DNA of 64,000 nucleotides from Thiogranum sp. (lineage in GTDB: Bacteria; Pseudomonadota; Gammaproteobacteria; DSM-19610): NCBI GenBank assembly GCA_022340245.1, contig JAJDOI010000063.1, forward strand, positions 1-64,000, given 5' to 3'. Below are positions 12,700 to 21,190 of the stretch, piece after piece. Below the pieces are notes generated by a model, which did no database searches, was not told the origin of the DNA, and worked only from the letters and a program-made list of their open reading frames with translations. Numbering within the stretch: the first letter of the stretch is position 1; the number at the start of each line of letters is the position of its first letter. A program made the position numbers and the translations under genes.

Positions 12700-14048
12700 C
12701 AGTCCGCCACTGCCTTGTGTATCCCGTCGCGCGCAACCGCGGCGATCATGTCGATCTGTTCGGTGCTGATGACGTAGGGCGGCATGAAATAGACGACGTT
12801 TCCCAATGGCCTAAGCAGCACGCCGTTGTCCAGTCCGTGTTGATAAACTTTCAGGCCACGCCGTTCCTGCCAGGGGAACGGCGTCCGGTTGGGTTTGTCG
12901 CGGACCATCTCGATGGCCAGTATCATGCCGCTCTGGCGTACCTCGGCGATATGCGGGTGTTCGGCAAACGATGCCGTTGCCTGTGCCATTGCGTCGGCCA
13001 GGAGGCGGTTGGCGTTGATCGTATCGTGCTGTTCGAACAACTCCAGGGTCGCCAGCGCTGTCCGGCAGGCCAGCGCATTGCCGGTGTAGCTGTGGGAGTG
13101 GAGGAAGGCCCGCAGGCTCTGGTAGTCGTCATAGAACGCCTGATAAACAGCATCACCGGTCAGTACAACCGATAATGGCAGATAGCCGCCAGTCAAACCC
13201 TTCGACAGACACAGAAAGTCAGGACTGATGTCGGCCTGTTCGCACGCAAAAAAAGTACCGGTGCGCCCGAAACCCACCGCGATTTCATCGGCGATCAGGT
13301 GCACACCGTAGCGGTCGCAGGCCTCGCGCAACAGCTTCAGATATATCGGATCGTACATGCGCATGCTGCCGGCACACTGTACCAGTGGCTCGACGATCAC
13401 CGCACAGACTTGCTCCGCATGCTGTTCCAGCGCCCGTTGCATGTGACTGAACATGCGCTCGCTGTAGGCGGCGCAGGATTCGCCCGGCTCACGATTGAAA
13501 CAGTCGGGGGAAGGAACGCTGATGGTCTCCATGAGCAGCGGTCCGTAGGTGTCTTTGTAAAGTTCCACATTGCCTACGGCGAGCGCGCCCAGAGTCTCGC
13601 CGTGGTAGCTGTTTTCCAGGGTGATGAATCTGGTTTTGCCGTTGTGCCCGGTGTTGCGCCAGTAGTGGAAACTCATTTTCAGCGCGACTTCGATGGCCGA
13701 TGAGCCATTGTCGGCATAGAAACAGCGATCCAGTCCTGGCGGTGCCACGTCGACCAGTCGTTCGGACAGCTCGATGACCGCTTCGTGGGAGAATCCTGCC
13801 AGCATGACGTGTTCCAGCGTTTCCGCCTGTTTGCGTAGCGCGTTATTGATATGCGGATTGGCGTGGCCGAACAGGTTCACCCACCAGGAACTAATGGCAT
13901 CAAGGTAGCGTCTGCCGTCAAAATCCTCCAGCCAGACCCCGTCGCCGCGACGTATAGGGGTCATGGGCAGCCACTCGTGATCTTTCATCTGGGTGCAGGG
14001 ATGCCAGACAACGGACAGGTCGCGCTTCACCAGTTCGGCGTTATTCAT
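12699..14048 (-). CDS. bioA: Adenosylmethionine-8-amino-7-oxononanoate aminotransferase
   Basis: 449 residues from ATG 14048; a GTG five codons earlier (14063) is possible, but the ATG fits the spacing to VVWHPCTQMKDHE seen in BioA proteins. BioA is a PLP enzyme that converts KAPA to DAPA in biotin synthesis and uses SAM as amino donor. The PLP lysine lies in LSKGLTGGYLPL, and YHGETLGALAVG and the LHSHSYTGN segment are family hallmarks. It stands apart from other bio genes and sits with metK, ahcY and metF, which fits its unusual SAM use. rsmE follows in overlap. Confidence 0.93.
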   Translation of the reverse strand: MNNAELVKRDLSVVWHPCTQMKDHEWLPMTPIRRGDGVWLEDFDGRRYLDAISSWWVNLFGHANPHINNALRKQAETLEHVMLAGFSHEAVIELSERLVDVAPPGLDRCFYADNGSSAIEVALKMSFHYWRNTGHNGKTRFITLENSYHGETLGALAVGNVELYKDTYGPLLMETISVPSPDCFNREPGESCAAYSERMFSHMQRALEQHAEQVCAVIVEPLVQCAGSMRMYDPIYLKLLREACDRYGVHLIADEIAVGFGRTGTFFACEQADISPDFLCLSKGLTGGYLPLSVVLTGDAVYQAFYDDYQSLRAFLHSHSYTGNALACRTALATLELFEQHDTINANRLLADAMAQATASFAEHPHIAEVRQSGMILAIEMVRDKPNRTPFPWQERRGLKVYQHGLDNGVLLRPLGNVVYFMPPYVISTEQIDMIAAVARDGIHKAVAD

Positions 14049-14208
14049 GGGTTTTTTCGCCACGGCGGTACGCCCGGGCGCGGGAAGGATTGTTTCTGCG
14101 CATAAACCAAGCCCATGTTATAAAGCCCGATATTCCTGTCTGCGAGCGGTACCCCGTCGGCTGTTGCCGGGTGTGGGCTCGTGGCGGCCGCCGCGGGTGG
14201 CCCCCTGC

Positions 14209-15063
14209 TTACTTGCTCAGTCCGAGATTGTTCCAGATTGCCCTGGTGGGGCCGGCCTGGTTCATGGTGTAGAAGTGCAGACCGGGGGCGCCGGCATCCA
14301 GCAGTGTCCGGCACAGCCGGGTCACAACCTCCGCGCCAAAAGCGCGGATCGAGTCGCGGTCGTCGCCAAAGCCTTCCAGTCGCTTGCGGATCCAGCGGGG
14401 GATCTCCGCTCCGCACATGTCGGAGAAGCGCGCCAGTTGAGTGTAGTTGGTGATGGGCATGATGCCAGGGACAATCGGCAGCGTCACCCCGCACTGTTCG
14501 CAGCGACTGACAAAATGGAAATAGGCTTCAGCGTTGAAGAAATACTGCGTGATCGCGCTGTCGGCTCCGGCTTCGACCTTGCGTTTGAAGTTTTCCAGGT
14601 CCTTGTCGGCGCTGGGCGCCTGGGGGTGGACCTCGGGATATGCCGCCACTTCAATATGGAAGTGATCACCGGTCTCTGCACGGATGAACGCAACCAGTTC
14701 ATTGGCAAAGCGGAACTCGCCGGGCAGTCCCATGCCGGAGGGTAAGTCGCCCCGCAAGGCAACGATATGACGTATGCCCTGCGATTTGTACATGTCGAGA
14801 ATGTCGCGGATGTTGTCCCTGGTGGAGCCGACACAGGACAGGTGAGGTGCGGCCTCGATCCCCGAGTCGCGCTGGATTTCACAGACCGTGTCAAAGGTGC
14901 GTTCACGCGTCGAGCCGCCGGCACCAAAGGTCACTGAAAAAAAGCGCGGGTTGAGTTCCGCCAGTTGTTGGCGGGTGGCGCGCAGTTTTTCCATGCCTTC
15001 ATCCGTTTTTGGCGGGAAGAACTCGAAACTGTATACCTTGGCGTGTTTCTTTTGAGATTCCAT
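14209..15063 (-). CDS. metF: Methylenetetrahydrofolate reductase MetF
   Basis: 284 residues, beginning MESQKKHAKVYSFEFFPPKT, the family's N-terminal pattern, with FSVTFGAGGSTRERT and HIVALRGDLPSG as FAD- and folate-binding segments. It is a TIM-barrel flavoprotein making 5-methyltetrahydrofolate for methionine synthesis. It lies 124 bases downstream of ahcY on the same strand and probably shares the SAH-controlled transcript, which would link methyl supply to SAH recycling. Length equals that of single-domain bacterial MetF. Confidence 0.95.
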   Translation of the reverse strand: MESQKKHAKVYSFEFFPPKTDEGMEKLRATRQQLAELNPRFFSVTFGAGGSTRERTFDTVCEIQRDSGIEAAPHLSCVGSTRDNIRDILDMYKSQGIRHIVALRGDLPSGMGLPGEFRFANELVAFIRAETGDHFHIEVAAYPEVHPQAPSADKDLENFKRKVEAGADSAITQYFFNAEAYFHFVSRCEQCGVTLPIVPGIMPITNYTQLARFSDMCGAEIPRWIRKRLEGFGDDRDSIRAFGAEVVTRLCRTLLDAGAPGLHFYTMNQAGPTRAIWNNLGLSK

Positions 15064-15187
15064 AGCAGACTGTTATGCCCTGGCTGGTGGAAGGCTGTGG
15101 GTCGACGACCGAACGGTCAGCCGGTAGCGGTCCACGCGCCCCGGCCTGGGCCGGGGCGTCGGTTCGGGAGCCGCGCACCTGGACAGA

Positions 15188-16606
15188 TCAATACCGGTAG
15201 TGCTCCGGCTTGTAAGGTCCTTCGGCCTTCAAGCCGAGGTACTCGGCCTGCTGTTGTGTCAGCGCAGTCAGGTTGGCGCCGATTTTCTTCAGGTGCAGGC
15301 GCGCGACCTTTTCATCGAGCAGCTTCGGCAGGACGTAAACCTTGTTCCCATAGTTGCCGGTGTTGCTGAACAATTCCATTTGCGCCATCACCTGGTTGGT
15401 GAAGGAAGCCGACATCACAAAGCTGGGATGGCCGGTGGCGCAGCCCAGATTAACCAGTCGCCCTTTTGCCAGGACTATGATCTTTTTGCCGTCGGGGAAG
15501 ATGACATGGTCGACCTGCGGTTTGATCTCCTCCCACTGGTATTTCTCCAGCGATGCGATGTCGATTTCCGAATCGAAGTGGCCGATGTTGCAGACAATCG
15601 CTTCGTCTTTCATGGCCTGCATGTGATCGTGCGTGATCACGTGAACGTTACCGGTGGTGGTAACAAAAATGTCGCCGATGGCAGCGGCTTCGTCCATGGT
15701 GACGACGCGGTAGCCCTCCATGGTCGCCTGCAGGGCGCAGATCGGATCGATTTCGGTAACCATGACGGTGGCGCCCATGCCGCGGTAGGCCTGTGCGCAG
15801 CCCTTGCCGACGTCGCCGTAACCCAGCACCACACAGATCTTGCCCGCGATCATCACATCGGTGGCGCGCTTGATGCCATCGATCAGCGATTCACGGCAGC
15901 CGTAGAGGTTATCGAACTTCGACTTGGTGACGGAGTCGTTTACGTTCATGGCGGGGAACAGCAGCTCACCGGTTTCCTGCATGTGGTACAGGCGGTGCAC
16001 GCCGGTGGTAGTTTCCTCGGTCACGCCTTTGACGCTGTCGGCCATTTTCTGCCAGAAGCCGGGTTTGTTCTCCAGCGTGCGTTTCAGCACAGCAAGAATC
16101 GCAACCCATTCCTCGTTGTCGCCCGCCTTGGGTTCCGGGACCGCGCCGGCCTTCTCGAATTCGACACCCTTGTGGAGCAGCAGGGTGGCGTCGCCGCCAT
16201 CGTCGAGAATCATGTTGGGCATGCCGCCGTCCGGCCAGGTCAGCGCCTGCTCGGTACACCACCAGTATTCGTCGATGGTCTCGCCCTTCCAGGCGTAGAC
16301 AGGTATGCCGTCGGCGGCGATGGCGGCAGCGGCGTGATCCTGGGTGGAGAAAATATTGCAGGACGCCCAGCGAACTTCGGCACCGAGTGCAACCAGTGTT
16401 TCGATGAGCACCGCGGTCTGGATGGTCATGTGCAGGCTGCCGGTGATGCGTGCGCCCTTGAGCGGCTGCTGCGCACCGAATTCCTCGCGCAGGGCCATAA
16501 GGCCGGGCATTTCGTTCTCGGCAATGGCGATTTCCTTGCGGCCCCAGTCGGCCAGTTTGATGTCAGCAACCTTGTAGTCGGCGGAAGAACTTAAAACAGC
16601 GTTCAT
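15188..16606 (-). CDS. ahcY: S-adenosyl-L-homocysteine hydrolase
   Basis: 472 residues, typical for the longer proteobacterial form. It splits SAH to adenosine and homocysteine with a bound NAD. Visible parts are the substrate region [14 protein letters not shown], the NAD-binding [11 protein letters not shown], and the conserved C-terminal KPEHYRY that reaches into the partner subunit. ATG 16606 has a TTGGAG ribosome site. An SAH riboswitch lies directly upstream, so its own substrate should raise expression. Confidence 0.97.
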
Positions 16607-16631
16607 GGTTCATCTCCAATAAAGCAAAGAT

Positions 16632-16704
16632 GAGCGCCGTTGTTTTGAAGCGCTGGTTTCCCTGAGCCTGACGGGTCTGCCCCGCTGCAGCGCCCCTCAG
16701 GGAA
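16632..16704 (-). promoter_or_regulatory. SAH riboswitch upstream of ahcY
   Basis: On the minus strand the ahcY leader carries the conserved parts of the SAH riboswitch in order: GAGGGGCGCTGCAGC, then CGTCAGGCTCAGGG, and finally AACGGCGCTCA close to the ribosome site. CCCTGAG (5' side) pairs with CTCAGGG to form P1, and the 3' GGCGCTC can pair with the GCGC of the first segment for the pseudoknot part. In this family SAH binding turns expression on. The match to the remembered consensus is close over both conserved blocks; an Rfam covariance search would settle it. Confidence 0.9.
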
Positions 16705-16725
16705 CACAGCAAATTGATTTGTGCA

Positions 16726-16754
16726 ATTATCCCGGATTCGACCGGGCAAGTAAA
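16726..16754 (-). promoter_or_regulatory. Candidate sigma-70 promoter for ahcY
   Basis: On the minus strand TTTACT (16749-16754) and GATAAT (16726-16731) are separated by 17 bases. The predicted start of transcription falls around 16719, about 15 bases before the SAH aptamer. The -35 element is a partial match, so this is moderate support. Confidence 0.5.
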
Positions 16755-16854
16755 AGGGGGCGGATGCGGCAAGCCATCCTCCCCCCGGATCGGCAGTCAT
16801 TTCAGGGCTTACCCGCTGAAACCCGCGGGGCGCGCCAGCGGTGTCGCTGTTGTC

Positions 16855-18021
16855 TCAGAGACCGGCATCAGCGCGCAGCGCTTCGGCTTTGTCGGTTCTT
16901 TCCCATGTGAAGCCTTCGTGTTCACGCCCGAAATGGCCATAAGCAGCTGTTTTACGGTATTTAATCTTTTCGGCATTCAGCAGGTCCAGCATGCTGAGAA
17001 TACCGTAGGGACGCAGGTCGAAATGCTCGCGGACCAGGTTGGTGATGCGCTCGTCGCTGATCTGACCGGTGCCGAAGGTCTCGACCATGATGGATGTGGG
17101 TTCGGCCACGCCGATGGCATAGGACACCTGTATCTCACAGCGCTCGGCAAGTCCCGCGGCGACAATGTTCTTGGCCACATAGCGTGCGGCGTAAGCCGCG
17201 GACCTGTCGACCTTGGACGGATCCTTGCCGGAAAAGGCACCGCCGCCGTGCCGCGCGGCGCCACCATAAGTGTCGACAATGATCTTGCGGCCGGTCAGGC
17301 CGGCATCGCCCATTGGGCCGCCGATGACAAACGCACCGGTGGGATTGATGTGGTATTTGGTGGTGGTGCTCAGCCATTCGCTGGGCAGCACCGGTTTGAT
17401 GATATGTTCCATGACCGCTTCTTCCAGCTCATTGTGGTCGACATCGGGCGAATGCTGGGTTGATAACACGACGGCGTCGATGCCCACCGGTTTCGCGTCC
17501 CGGTAGTGGAACGTCACCTGGCTCTTGGCGTCGGGGCGCAACCAGCTGAGCACGCCGTTGCGGCGCATTTCCGCCTGACGCTGCACCAGGCGGTGCGCAT
17601 AGGTGACCGGTGCGGGCATCAGCACATCGGTTTCGTTGGTGGCATAGCCGAACATCAGGCCCTGGTCACCGGCACCCTGATCCTCGGGCCTGGCGCGGTC
17701 CACGCCCTGGTTGATGTCGGGTGACTGCACGCCCAGTGCCGTCATCACCGCACAGGTCTCCCAGTCGAAGCCCATCTCCGAGCTGGTATAGCCGATGTCC
17801 TTGATGCTCTGGCGCATCAGCTGTTCGAAGTCGGGTTTGGCGGTAGTGGTGATTTCCCCGGCAATCAATACCATACCGGTCTTTACCAGGGTTTCGCAGG
17901 CGACGCGGGCATGCTTGTCTTCGGCGAGGATAGCGTCCAGCACGGCGTCTGATACCTGATCGGCCATTTTGTCCGGGTGGCCTTCAGAGACCGATTCTGA
18001 TGTAAACAGGTGTTCGCTCAT
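16855..18021 (-). CDS. metK: S-adenosylmethionine synthetase
   Basis: 388 residues from ATG 18021, which has a GAGG site at 18029-18032; a TTG five codons earlier lies inside the poly-U tract of the leader terminator and is unlikely. MetK makes SAM from methionine and ATP. Family motifs are [27 protein letters not shown] and [19 protein letters not shown]. It heads the minus-strand methyl-cycle group. Its leader contains a SAM-II-like aptamer and an intrinsic terminator, so the product SAM probably represses it. Confidence 0.97.
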
Positions 18022-18034
18022 ACATATACCTCGC

Positions 18035-18073
18035 AAAAAATAAAAAACCCGCTGGAACCGGAGTTCTAGCGGG
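18035..18073 (-). terminator. Intrinsic terminator inside the metK leader (attenuator)
   Basis: Minus strand: CCCGCT-A-GAAC, a short loop, GTTC-C-AGCGGG, giving ten paired bases with one A.C mismatch, followed by T6-A-T6. The T tract ends three bases before the metK ribosome site, and there is no upstream gene on this strand to terminate, so it must act within the metK leader. The 5' arm CCCGCT is also complementary to AGCGAG at the 3' end of the upstream aptamer, offering an alternative antiterminator pairing. Confidence 0.85.
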
Positions 18074-18092
18074 CCTGGAAAAACCTGACTGT

Positions 18093-18146
18093 CTCGCTTT
18101 AGCGGTATTTATTAAGCGCCCGCAATCTGAACTCAAATCAGCGCTG
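18093..18146 (-). promoter_or_regulatory. SAM-II-like riboswitch aptamer before metK
   Basis: Read on the minus strand, the leader has the SAM-II order of conserved blocks: stem arm AGCGC followed by TGATTTG, then ATTGCGG, the matching stem arm GCGCT, TAATAAAT, and CGCTAAAG. P1 is AGCGC with GCGCT; the loop GCGG can pair with CCGC further 3' to make the H-type pseudoknot. SAM-II in alphaproteobacterial met genes has TGATTTG, TTGCAGCCAC and GCTAAA in the same arrangement. The call rests on recalled consensus; Infernal against Rfam SAM-II and SAM-V would decide. Confidence 0.78.
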
Positions 18147-18153
18147 GGGCGGA

Positions 18154-18183
18154 ATTGTAGGCGAATCCTCCGCCGGAAGTCAA
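18154..18183 (-). promoter_or_regulatory. Sigma-70 promoter for metK
   Basis: Minus strand TTGACT (18178-18183), 18-base spacer, TACAAT (18154-18159). The expected transcription start, about seven bases downstream, coincides with the first base of the SAM-II-like aptamer, so promoter, aptamer, terminator and ribosome site are laid out without spare sequence. Confidence 0.75.
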
Positions 18184-18290
18184 AGCCACCCGCGCCCGGC
18201 GCTCAAAGACACCCGCCGCTTAATGGTTTTAATTCTTCCGCGCTGGGTTAGACTGTTTGACCAAGGTTCCTGAAGCGAGGATGGTTTTCT

Positions 18291-18854
18291 ATGGTTTCCC
18301 TGGAAACACCTATATGCGATTTCGGTGCGCCGGCGATAGACTTCGAGCTGCCTGGCGTCGACGGCAAGCTGTGGACCCTGGATCAGTGCCGGGGTGACAA
18401 GGGCTTGCTGGTGATGTTTATCTGCAATCACTGCCCTTACGTCAAGGCGATACGCGATCGCCTCGTGCGCGATACCCGTGAACTGATGCAGCACGGCGTC
18501 AGCAGCGTCGCTGTTATGGCTAATGACCCCACGGATTATCCGGAAGATTCCTTCGAAAATATGAAAAAAGTAGCCGAGCAGGCGGATTTTCCGTTTCCCT
18601 ACCTGCTTGACGAAACCCAGGCCGTGGCCAAGGCCTATGGTGCTGTTTGTACGCCGGATTTCTTCGGCTACAACGCGGACCTGCAGTTGCAGTACCGGGG
18701 GCGTCTCGATGCCAGTCGCAAAGAGCCCGCAGCCGCAGATTCGCGGCGGGATCTTTTCGAAGCCATGCTCGCGGTGGCGCGGACCGGACACGGGCCCGCC
18801 GAACAGATTCCGAGCATGGGTTGCTCGATAAAATGGAAGACGGAAGCCGCCTGA
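18291..18854 (+). CDS. Thioredoxin-like (AhpC/TSA-type) protein
   Basis: 187 residues with a thioredoxin fold of the peroxiredoxin/resA-like branch: DFGAPAIDFELPGVDGKLWTLDQ, a CxxC-type site CNHCPYV near residue 46, then YLLDETQAVAKAYGAVCTPDFF with the cis-proline-like TPD. Such proteins are cytoplasmic thiol oxidoreductases or peroxidases of unassigned substrate. No signal peptide is visible. It is divergent from metK and separated by 350 bases from tkt. Physiological role not known from sequence. Confidence 0.85.
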   Translation: MVSLETPICDFGAPAIDFELPGVDGKLWTLDQCRGDKGLLVMFICNHCPYVKAIRDRLVRDTRELMQHGVSSVAVMANDPTDYPEDSFENMKKVAEQADFPFPYLLDETQAVAKAYGAVCTPDFFGYNADLQLQYRGRLDASRKEPAAADSRRDLFEAMLAVARTGHGPAEQIPSMGCSIKWKTEAA

Positions 18855-19204
18855 CGCTTTTTTCTATCCATATATAAGGAGTATTTAAGGCCCTGGACGC
18901 TGGTACAGGGCCCTGTCGCGTCTGGGCGATATCCCCGTCAATTCCTTGTCGTCGATTGAAAACAACGGTTGCTACCACCTGCTATCTGGTGGAGAATGGC
19001 GCGCTCGAATTTGGCCAGACCGGATGTGCGCCGCCGGACAGGCGGACGACTGCCCGCGGAGCCGTGATCTGGCGCTGGTTTGCCAGGATCCGGTGCCAAT
19101 ACAGTTGAATTCCAAAGTGACCGCATGCCGCGCGCGGAATGGGGGTCGCTTTTGCCGTTATGACACGGCTAATAACAGATTTAAAACGCTGACAGGAGAC
19201 AGCA
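18855..19204 (+). other. Intergenic stretch before tkt, no gene seen
   Basis: 350 bases. A hairpin GGCCCTG/CAGGGCC lies at 18889-18912 but lacks a following T run, so it is not called a terminator. A short T tract follows the upstream stop (ACGCTTTTTTC). No convincing promoter or CbbR-like operator was identified, although the tkt operon promoter should lie here. AGGAGA precedes the tkt ATG. Confidence 0.6.
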
Positions 19205-21190
19205 ATGGCCTCTCGTAAAGACCTTGCCAATGCCATCCGTGCGCTGAGTATGGATGCCGTTCAGAAAGCCAAGTCCGGTCACCCGGGCGCGCCCATGGGC
19301 ATGGCGGATATCGCCGAGGTGCTGTGGAACGATCACCTGAAGCACAATCCTGCGAATACCAAATGGGCCGACCGTGATCGTTTCGTTCTGTCCAACGGAC
19401 ATGGCTCCATGCTGATCTATTCGCTGCTTCACCTGACAGGTTACGACCTGTCAATCGATGACCTGAAGAACTTCCGTCAGCTGCATTCCAAGACCCCCGG
19501 TCATCCGGAGTACGGTTACGCGCCGGGCATCGAAACCACCACCGGCCCTCTGGGCCAGGGCATCACCAATGCCGTCGGTATGGCCATTGCCGAGAAGGTG
19601 CTCGGCGGTCAGTTCAACCGCGACGGGCATCACATCGTCGACCACTACACCTGGGTGTTTATGGGCGACGGCTGCATGATGGAAGGTATTTCCCACGAGG
19701 CCTGTTCGCTGGCCGGCACACTGGGCCTGGGCAAGCTGATTGCGTTCTGGGATGACAATGGCATTTCCATCGACGGTCATGTCGAGGGCTGGTTTACCGA
19801 CGACACCCCCGGGCGTTTCGAAGCTTACGGCTGGCACGTGGTCCGCGAAGTCGACGGTCACGACCCGGCGGCGATAGACAAGGCGATTCACGAAGCCAAG
19901 TCCGTGAACGACAAGCCTACCCTGATCTGCACCAAGACTGTTATCGGCTACGGCGCACCCAACCTGTGCGGCAGCCACGATTGTCACGGCGCACCGTTGG
20001 GCGACGACGAGATCAAGGCGACCCGGGAAAACCTGGGCTGGAACCACGACCCGTTCGTGGTTCCCGACGACATCTATGCGGGGTGGAATGCCAAGGGCAA
20101 GGGCAGCGACGCGGAAAAGGCCTGGAACGACAAGTTCAACGCCTATCAGGCCGCGTACCCTGAGCTGGCCTCCGAGTTCGAGCGTCGTGTAGCGGGCGAG
20201 CTGCCGATAAACTGGACGGAAGGCGCCAACGGCTTCATCGCTGCGGTCAACGAAAAGGCCGAAACGATTGCCTCGCGCAAAGCGTCGCAGAATGCACTGA
20301 ACGGCTTCGGTCCGCTACTGCCTGAATTTCTCGGTGGTTCCGCCGACCTGGCCGGTTCCAACCTGACAATCTGGTCGGAGTCGAAAGGCATCAGCAATAC
20401 CGTGTCGGACGGCAACTACATCTACTATGGCGTACGTGAGTTCGGTATGTCCGCTATGATGAACGGTATTGCCCTGCATGGCGGGTTCATCCCCTACGGC
20501 GCAACCTTCCTGATGTTCTCGGAGTACGCGCGCAATGCCCTGCGTATGGCGGCGCTGATGAAGATTCAGAGTATCTTTGTCTACACACACGACTCCATTG
20601 GCCTCGGCGAAGACGGTCCGACCCACCAGCCGGTGGAGCAGACCGCGACCCTGCGCATGATACCCAACATGTCCGTCTGGCGTCCTTGTGATGCAGTCGA
20701 ATCTGCCGTGTGCTGGAAAGTCGCAGTTGAACGCACCGACGGCCCCAGCTGTCTGATTTTCTCCCGCCAGAATCTGGCCCACCAGAATCGCGACGCGGAG
20801 CAGATTGCCAACATCGAGCGTGGTGGTTACATCCTCAAGGACTGCGCCGGGGCGCCGGACGTCATCGTCATCGCTACTGGCTCGGAAGTAGACCTGGCCG
20901 TGCAGGCCGCCACCCAGAGCGGCAGAAAGGTGCGCGTGGTGTCCATGCCGTCTACCGATGTCTTCGACGCGCAGGACGAAGCTTATCGAGAATCGGTGCT
21001 GCCTGCTGCGGTGACGGCGCGCGTGGCTGTCGAGGCTGGTGTGACCGACTACTGGCGCAAGTACGTGGGCCTGAACGGCAGCGTGATTGGCATTGATCGC
21101 TTCGGCGAGTCCGCCCCGGCCGGCGACCTGTTCAAACACTTTGGCTTTACGGTGGAGAACGTGGTTGCAGCGATCGACGCGGTGGCCTAG
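19205..21190 (+). CDS. tkt: Transketolase
   Basis: 661 residues, full length. ThDP-dependent enzyme of the Calvin and pentose phosphate pathways. N-terminal [12 protein letters not shown], the ThDP/Mg motif [13 protein letters not shown], the pyrimidine-domain [15 protein letters not shown], and [18 protein letters not shown] are all present. It opens a five-gene operon tkt-gap-pgk-pyk-fba on the plus strand. With rpe and gph later in the window this points to use in carbon fixation, although RuBisCO itself is not in the window. Confidence 0.97.

Follow-up and report, generated by a model that had tools for sequence, protein, structure and literature searches.

A SAM-II riboswitch with a terminator before metK in the gammaproteobacterium Thiogranum, and its relatives across the class

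What controls SAM synthetase in a bacterium whose metK leader appears to carry a promoter, a small pseudoknot and a terminator in direct succession? The question was raised by a locus in Thiogranum sp., placed in Gammaproteobacteria by NCBI, within the 64,000-nt stretch of DNA that we analysed as a whole (the window), for which a first-pass annotation had proposed a promoter, a SAM-II-like pseudoknot aptamer, a terminator and the metK ribosome site lying end to end. All of these parts are present, on the minus strand from 18183 to 18029 (Table 1), and SAM-II with an attenuator before metK is the best reading of them. Its identification as SAM-II rests on sequence, conservation, covariation, the terminator and gene context, and we are highly confident that the element is a SAM-II riboswitch that turns metK off at the level of transcription. 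SAM-II RNAs are known to bind SAM, to have a promoter immediately ahead of P1, to carry terminators and to switch genes off (Corbino 2005, PMC1273637). We infer SAM binding and SAM-dependent termination for the window leader also, such that metK transcription would very probably be stopped by the switch when SAM is plentiful.

Table 1. Features of the metK leader and the neighbouring genes in the window
Feature	Position	Strand	Basis or remark
Sigma-70-type promoter TTGACT-18-TACAAT	18154..18183	-	sequence, promoter scan, 223 homologues
-35 box TTGACT	18183-18178	-	18-nt spacer
-10 box TACAAT	18159-18154	-	
SAM-II aptamer	18145-18094	-	start ~8 nt past -10
P1 5' strand AGCGCU	18140..18145	-	outer P1 pairs covary (224 homologues; alignment A2)
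L1 GAUUUGA, third strand of SAM-binding triplex	18133..18139	-	GATTT conservation; RF00521 alignment
Distal pseudoknot helix P2a, 5' strand UC-(A)-G	18127..18130	-	partner CGA 18096-18094; covariation
Inner pseudoknot helix P2b, 5' strand UUGCG	18121..18125	-	includes extra pair G18121-C18105; TTGC conservation
P1 3' strand GGCGCU	18115..18120	-	covariation
Pseudoknot 3' strand CCGCUAAAGCGA, SAM-pocket letters GCUAAA	18094..18105	-	GCTAAA conservation
Intrinsic terminator stem-loop AGGCCCGCUAGAACUCCGGUUCCAGCGGGUUU	18045..18076	-	-19.8 kcal/mol
U-tract T6AT6	18035..18047	-	sequence
metK ribosome-binding site GAGG	18029..18032	-	7 nt before ATG
metK start ATG	18021-18019	-	
metK, SAM synthetase, 388 aa	16855..18021	-	NCBIfam TIGR01034, 614.7 bits
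SAH riboswitch RF01057	16625..16704	-	63.2 bits, above gathering cut-off 37
ahcY, SAH hydrolase	15188..16606	-	NCBIfam TIGR00936, 648.2 bits
metF, methylenetetrahydrofolate reductase	14209..15063	-	NCBIfam TIGR00676, 351.7 bits

Comparison with Rfam by Infernal pointed to the class: cmscan matched the element in place to RF00521 (SAM_alpha, i.e., SAM-II) at 33.7 bits, E = 7.5e-6, under the gathering cut-off of 36 bits. This cut-off is an annotation threshold and not a structural feature; standard annotation would thus overlook the window element, and two metK-type homologues do exceed the threshold (L209 at 38.8 bits and L205 at 36.7 bits). The features of SAM-II membership that we found were a covarying P1, the pseudoknot P2, the core letters, and a methionine or SAM gene together with a promoter before P1. 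In the rest of the window the only Rfam match above a curated cut-off was the SAH riboswitch before ahcY. SAM-II with long loops (RF01726) reached 16.5 bits only, against a gathering cut-off of 44, and Trp_leader, Bp2_287 and ceN47 were chance matches (E 0.73 to 9.2, far under their cut-offs). The SAM/SAH riboswitch RF01727, likewise found before metK but in Rhodobacterales only (PMC2864571), had no match in the window.

SAM-V deserved separate attention, since SAM-II and SAM-V have the architecture of the SAM site in common (PMC6061858), and a SAM-V or other member of the SAM-II/SAM-V superfamily with a similar core would control translation. We consider this most improbable. The SAM-V model (RF01826), proposed as a comparison in the first-pass annotation along with SAM-II, gave no match up to E = 10; SAM-V differs in its translational mode and its extra P3 stem, and in the window a strong terminator lies between the aptamer and the ribosome site, which are ~60 nt apart.

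The element resembles SAM-II (RF00521, crystal structure 2QWY) in its P1 and H-type pseudoknot, its GAUUU/UUGC/GCUAAA core, the promoter at P1, the terminator and the methionine/SAM genes served; it differs in having a short distal helix with a bulged A, and in scoring 33.7 bits vs. the cut-off of 36. The core letters were nearly invariant in 241 homologues (GATTT in 233, TTGC in 241 and GCTAAA in 240). We tested the 13 proposed pairs in alignment A2, of 107 distinct sequences, where 94.0% of cells were paired, as compared with 88.8% after shuffling and 30-45% after sliding; double-sided changes were seen in 73 cells vs. 30 in shuffles (73 was reached in 0 of 500), by statistics that ignore shared ancestry. 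P1 cells were 95.1% paired, with compensating changes at the outer pairs (157 vs. 96 and 213 vs. 190 in shuffles for 224 unique elements, shared ancestry again being ignored). The inner helix (helix 3) was 98.8% paired and almost invariant; the extra pair next to it, G18121-C18105 here, is that of Barrick 2007 (PMC2258182). The distal helix was 88.8% paired, with covariation at A2 columns 21-63, and an independent loop-tail scan of the 224 unique elements ranked the predicted distal pair (loop -5 : tail +3) best, z 7.6. In the window this helix is short, with 3-4 pairs and the bulged A, and one inner position is A.G; a 5-bp distal helix occurs in 60% of SAM-II (PMC6061858).

The promoter is conserved as well. 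The metK promoter matches at 10 of 12 positions, the best promoter match within 14000-19300 (5.3 kb), and at least 9 of 12 positions matched in 75% of 223 homologues vs. 4% of shuffled upstream stretches, with the -10 box usually 5-11 nt before P1. That the likeness to SAM-II arose by chance, in an ordinary constitutive leader that ends in a terminator or at a small-RNA promoter, is barely credible given the covariation and how deeply the element is conserved ahead of methionine genes, even though terminated SAM-II leaders do accumulate as sRNAs in S. meliloti (PMC9373788).

Homologues proved widespread. RF00521 matched in 17 of the 20 genomes of the window's family, at one or two places and always below the cut-off, and these matches stand before metK and before metZ. 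A covariance model (R1) built from 22 of them found 18 of 20 genomes of the family/order, before metK and/or metZ. This breadth puts the window match beyond chance. When the sample was the class, 369 Gammaproteobacteria sensu GTDB with betas included, R1 was positive in 183 genomes and 134 of 271 genera, many matches reaching E 1e-12 to 1e-19; RF00521 was above its cut-off in 30 of the 369, i.e., annotation by the curated cut-off recovers only about one-sixth of the positive genomes. Likewise a direct RF00521 test of 20 loci put one above the cut-off. A pattern scan of named genomes was positive for Rhodocyclaceae, Zoogloea, Thauera, Nitrosospira, Herbaspirillum, Herminiimonas, Neisseria, Halomonas, Bosea, Microvirga and others. 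Considered as a mutually exclusive alternative to the riboswitch, MetJ was present in four of the 369 sampled genomes, none of them R1-positive, a number too small to support such exclusion.

The first-pass annotation had described SAM-II as known mostly from alphaproteobacteria, but carriers in other groups were already on record. Coxiella and Bordetella were among them (Corbino 2005, PMC1273637), and Barrick and Breaker 2007 (PMC2258182) list gammaproteobacterial members, terminators being the predominant form in alpha- and beta-proteobacteria. With about half of the sampled genera of Gammaproteobacteria sensu GTDB carrying one, SAM-II is a common regulator across this class, and not mainly alphaproteobacterial as the Rfam name implies. 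Since SAM-II in gammaproteobacteria and SAM-II with terminators had both been reported, the window case is not a new type; the metK leader adds a member to a known class.

Of 224 leaders, 163 (73%) had a terminator no more than 160 nt away, vs. 5 of 220 control regions (2%), and the window's own fold (-19.8 kcal/mol) had z = -4.95 against shuffles. CCYGC occurred in the terminator 5' arm of 116 of 160 leaders vs. 19 of 226 other terminators, the control terminators being drawn from the window and from 8-kb loci; this enrichment indicates that the 5' arm is constrained beyond hairpin formation. In folds of transcripts cut before the terminator 3' arm, the 5' arm paired mainly with the aptamer CUAAAGCG strand (13 of 15 metK leaders and 74 of 97 metZ leaders).

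Which aptamer segment serves as antiterminator in the window itself has two candidate answers. The first-pass annotation had paired AGCGAG of the 3' aptamer segment with CCCGCT of the terminator arm, and AGCG in CCGCUAAAGCGA does double as that proposed strand. With the same aptamer, this AGCG/CGCU antiterminator could form alongside P1, and only the pseudoknot locked by SAM would prevent it. It is the dominant type in the truncated folds of homologues just given, whose terminator arms often run CCYGCUU(UA), complementary to UAAAGCG; however, in the window it reaches -18.6 kcal/mol, 2.4 kcal/mol weaker than the longer pairing of GAGUUC and GCGGGC with GCCCGC and GAACUC (-21.0 kcal/mol), and its pairing probability is near zero. 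By these thermodynamic folds, which leave out pseudoknots and kinetics, the longer GAGUUC/GCGGGC pairing is probably the window's main antiterminator; the earlier pairing, the commoner type among the homologues, is for the window a tentative second choice. Neither candidate can coexist with the SAM-bound pseudoknot, and either one yields an OFF switch. Swapping terminators between leaders gave no signal of leader-specific antiterminator covariation in duplex energies (mean 0.47); swapped-leader energies being alike, the antiterminator appears to be conserved as a motif, with the exact pairing a prediction.

The mechanism that we propose on this basis is as follows. The transcript would begin at the margin of P1, ~8 nt past the -10 box. 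In the absence of SAM the pseudoknot would be loose, and the terminator 5' arm (GCCCGC...GAAC) would pair in the nascent RNA with one of two parts of the aptamer, namely GAGUUC together with GCGGGC (from L1 and the P1 3' strand, favoured in the window) or the CUAAAGCG SAM-pocket strand (in most homologues); with the antiterminator formed, RNA polymerase would reach metK. Upon SAM binding, the triplex pseudoknot (P1, the inner UUGC/GCUAAA and the short distal UC-A-G/CGA) would sequester both segments, so that the terminator hairpin would form before the U-tract and metK would be off. A comparable case is the S. meliloti metZ SAM-II, for which SAM-dependent termination is predicted and in vivo RNA levels agree (Scheuer 2022, PMC9373788), although that is an alphaproteobacterium and the gene is metZ, not metK.

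The targets of these elements are those of the methionine/SAM pathway, as for known SAM-II. The first gene downstream of 241 elements was metZ (117), metK (24), metX (11), metF (6), metH (6), metN (4), the sulfonate-binding ssuA (4) or homoserine dehydrogenase hom (3), named via representatives, except for metH which was named from sequence alone. Seven of the sampled GTDB families had metK as a SAM-II target; a report of SAM-II on metK in gammaproteobacteria was not found in the open-licence literature, itself weak evidence. A curated SAH riboswitch followed metK in 19 of 23 tested SAM-II-metK loci (five families). A separate promoter-like site, at 16754-16726, stands before the window's SAH riboswitch, and metK and ahcY-metF may thus be controlled separately, the latter from that site through the SAH riboswitch. 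The SAH riboswitch class turns genes on at high SAH. SAM-II OFF combined with SAH ON would mean that SAM synthesis is trimmed when SAM is abundant and SAH removal is raised when SAH accumulates, a compact natural system in which each of the two processes is under a different RNA sensor, in adjacent genes.

This neighbour also bears on whether the SAM-II fold was retained while its ligand changed, to SAH or another SAM relative. Second copies in tandem elements sometimes vary in the pocket (GAGTTAA), and the literature consulted gave no ligand measurements for beta- or gamma-proteobacterial members. Against this, the window keeps the pocket letters unaltered, the genes served belong to SAM synthesis and the methionine pathway, SAM-II prefers SAM over SAH by a factor of more than 1000 (PMC1273637), and a separate SAH riboswitch lies 1.4 kb downstream. 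An altered ligand is therefore very unlikely, and we retain SAM.

In an earlier comparative study (Leyn 2014, PMC4239095), SAM_alpha was confined to Rhizobiales and Rhodobacterales, and an RNA named metXZ, from beta-proteobacteria, was set apart as an orphan. The window's target, metK, is absent from that study's SAM_alpha targets. The metXZ RNA, treated there as a new element without ligand, resembles our elements in a pseudoknot formed by regions 1-4 and 2-6, a GC-rich region 3, an A-or-C position and a terminator/antiterminator; it precedes metX(W) in most cases and metZ in Nitrosospira and Methylophilales. Our R1 elements match this gene spread (metX in Herminiimonas, Thauera and Zoogloea; metZ in Nitrosospira and Methylophilales). 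The agreement in pseudoknot, A-or-C position and terminator, and in the spread of genes, argues strongly, from the published description, that the beta-proteobacterial metXZ RNA is probably this same SAM-II group, which makes SAM a testable ligand for the orphan RNA. What is new is modest: SAM-II serves metK here, a SAH switch stands beside it, and metXZ probably joins the class. More broadly, we lean towards the view that beta/gamma SAM-IIs form a large subgroup, metXZ RNA included, that scores mostly below cut-offs, that its distal helix is short and bulged and its antiterminator joins the terminator arm to the SAM-pocket strand, and that in several gammaproteobacterial families this subgroup forms a two-switch methyl-cycle module with the SAH riboswitch (SAM-II OFF on metK beside SAH ON on ahcY-metF).

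Several observations were made in passing. In alphaproteobacteria (Bosea, Microvirga, Rhodoplanes), the SAM-II type stood before ssuA-like sulfonate ABC transporter genes (L104, L108, L109, L136), and in alphaproteobacterial MAGs before a gene for an OsmC-like protein (L088 156-215, L127 3406-3465). Tandem SAM-II, already known from 44 cases (PMC9481103), occurred at L022 (1512-1569/1394-1454) and L093 (4233-4292/4345-4404), and also at L150, L119, L141, L207, L257, L271, L274, L289, L294 and L296; the second copy was often variant (GATTTAA...CAACTTGC). Several tandems preceded genes outside methionine synthesis or without a Pfam match, namely MoxR-like AAA genes (L257/L207) and unknowns (L274, L294 and L296, with a metallophosphatase next in L296). 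One genome (G264) had ten SAM-II model matches, vs. the usual one or two.
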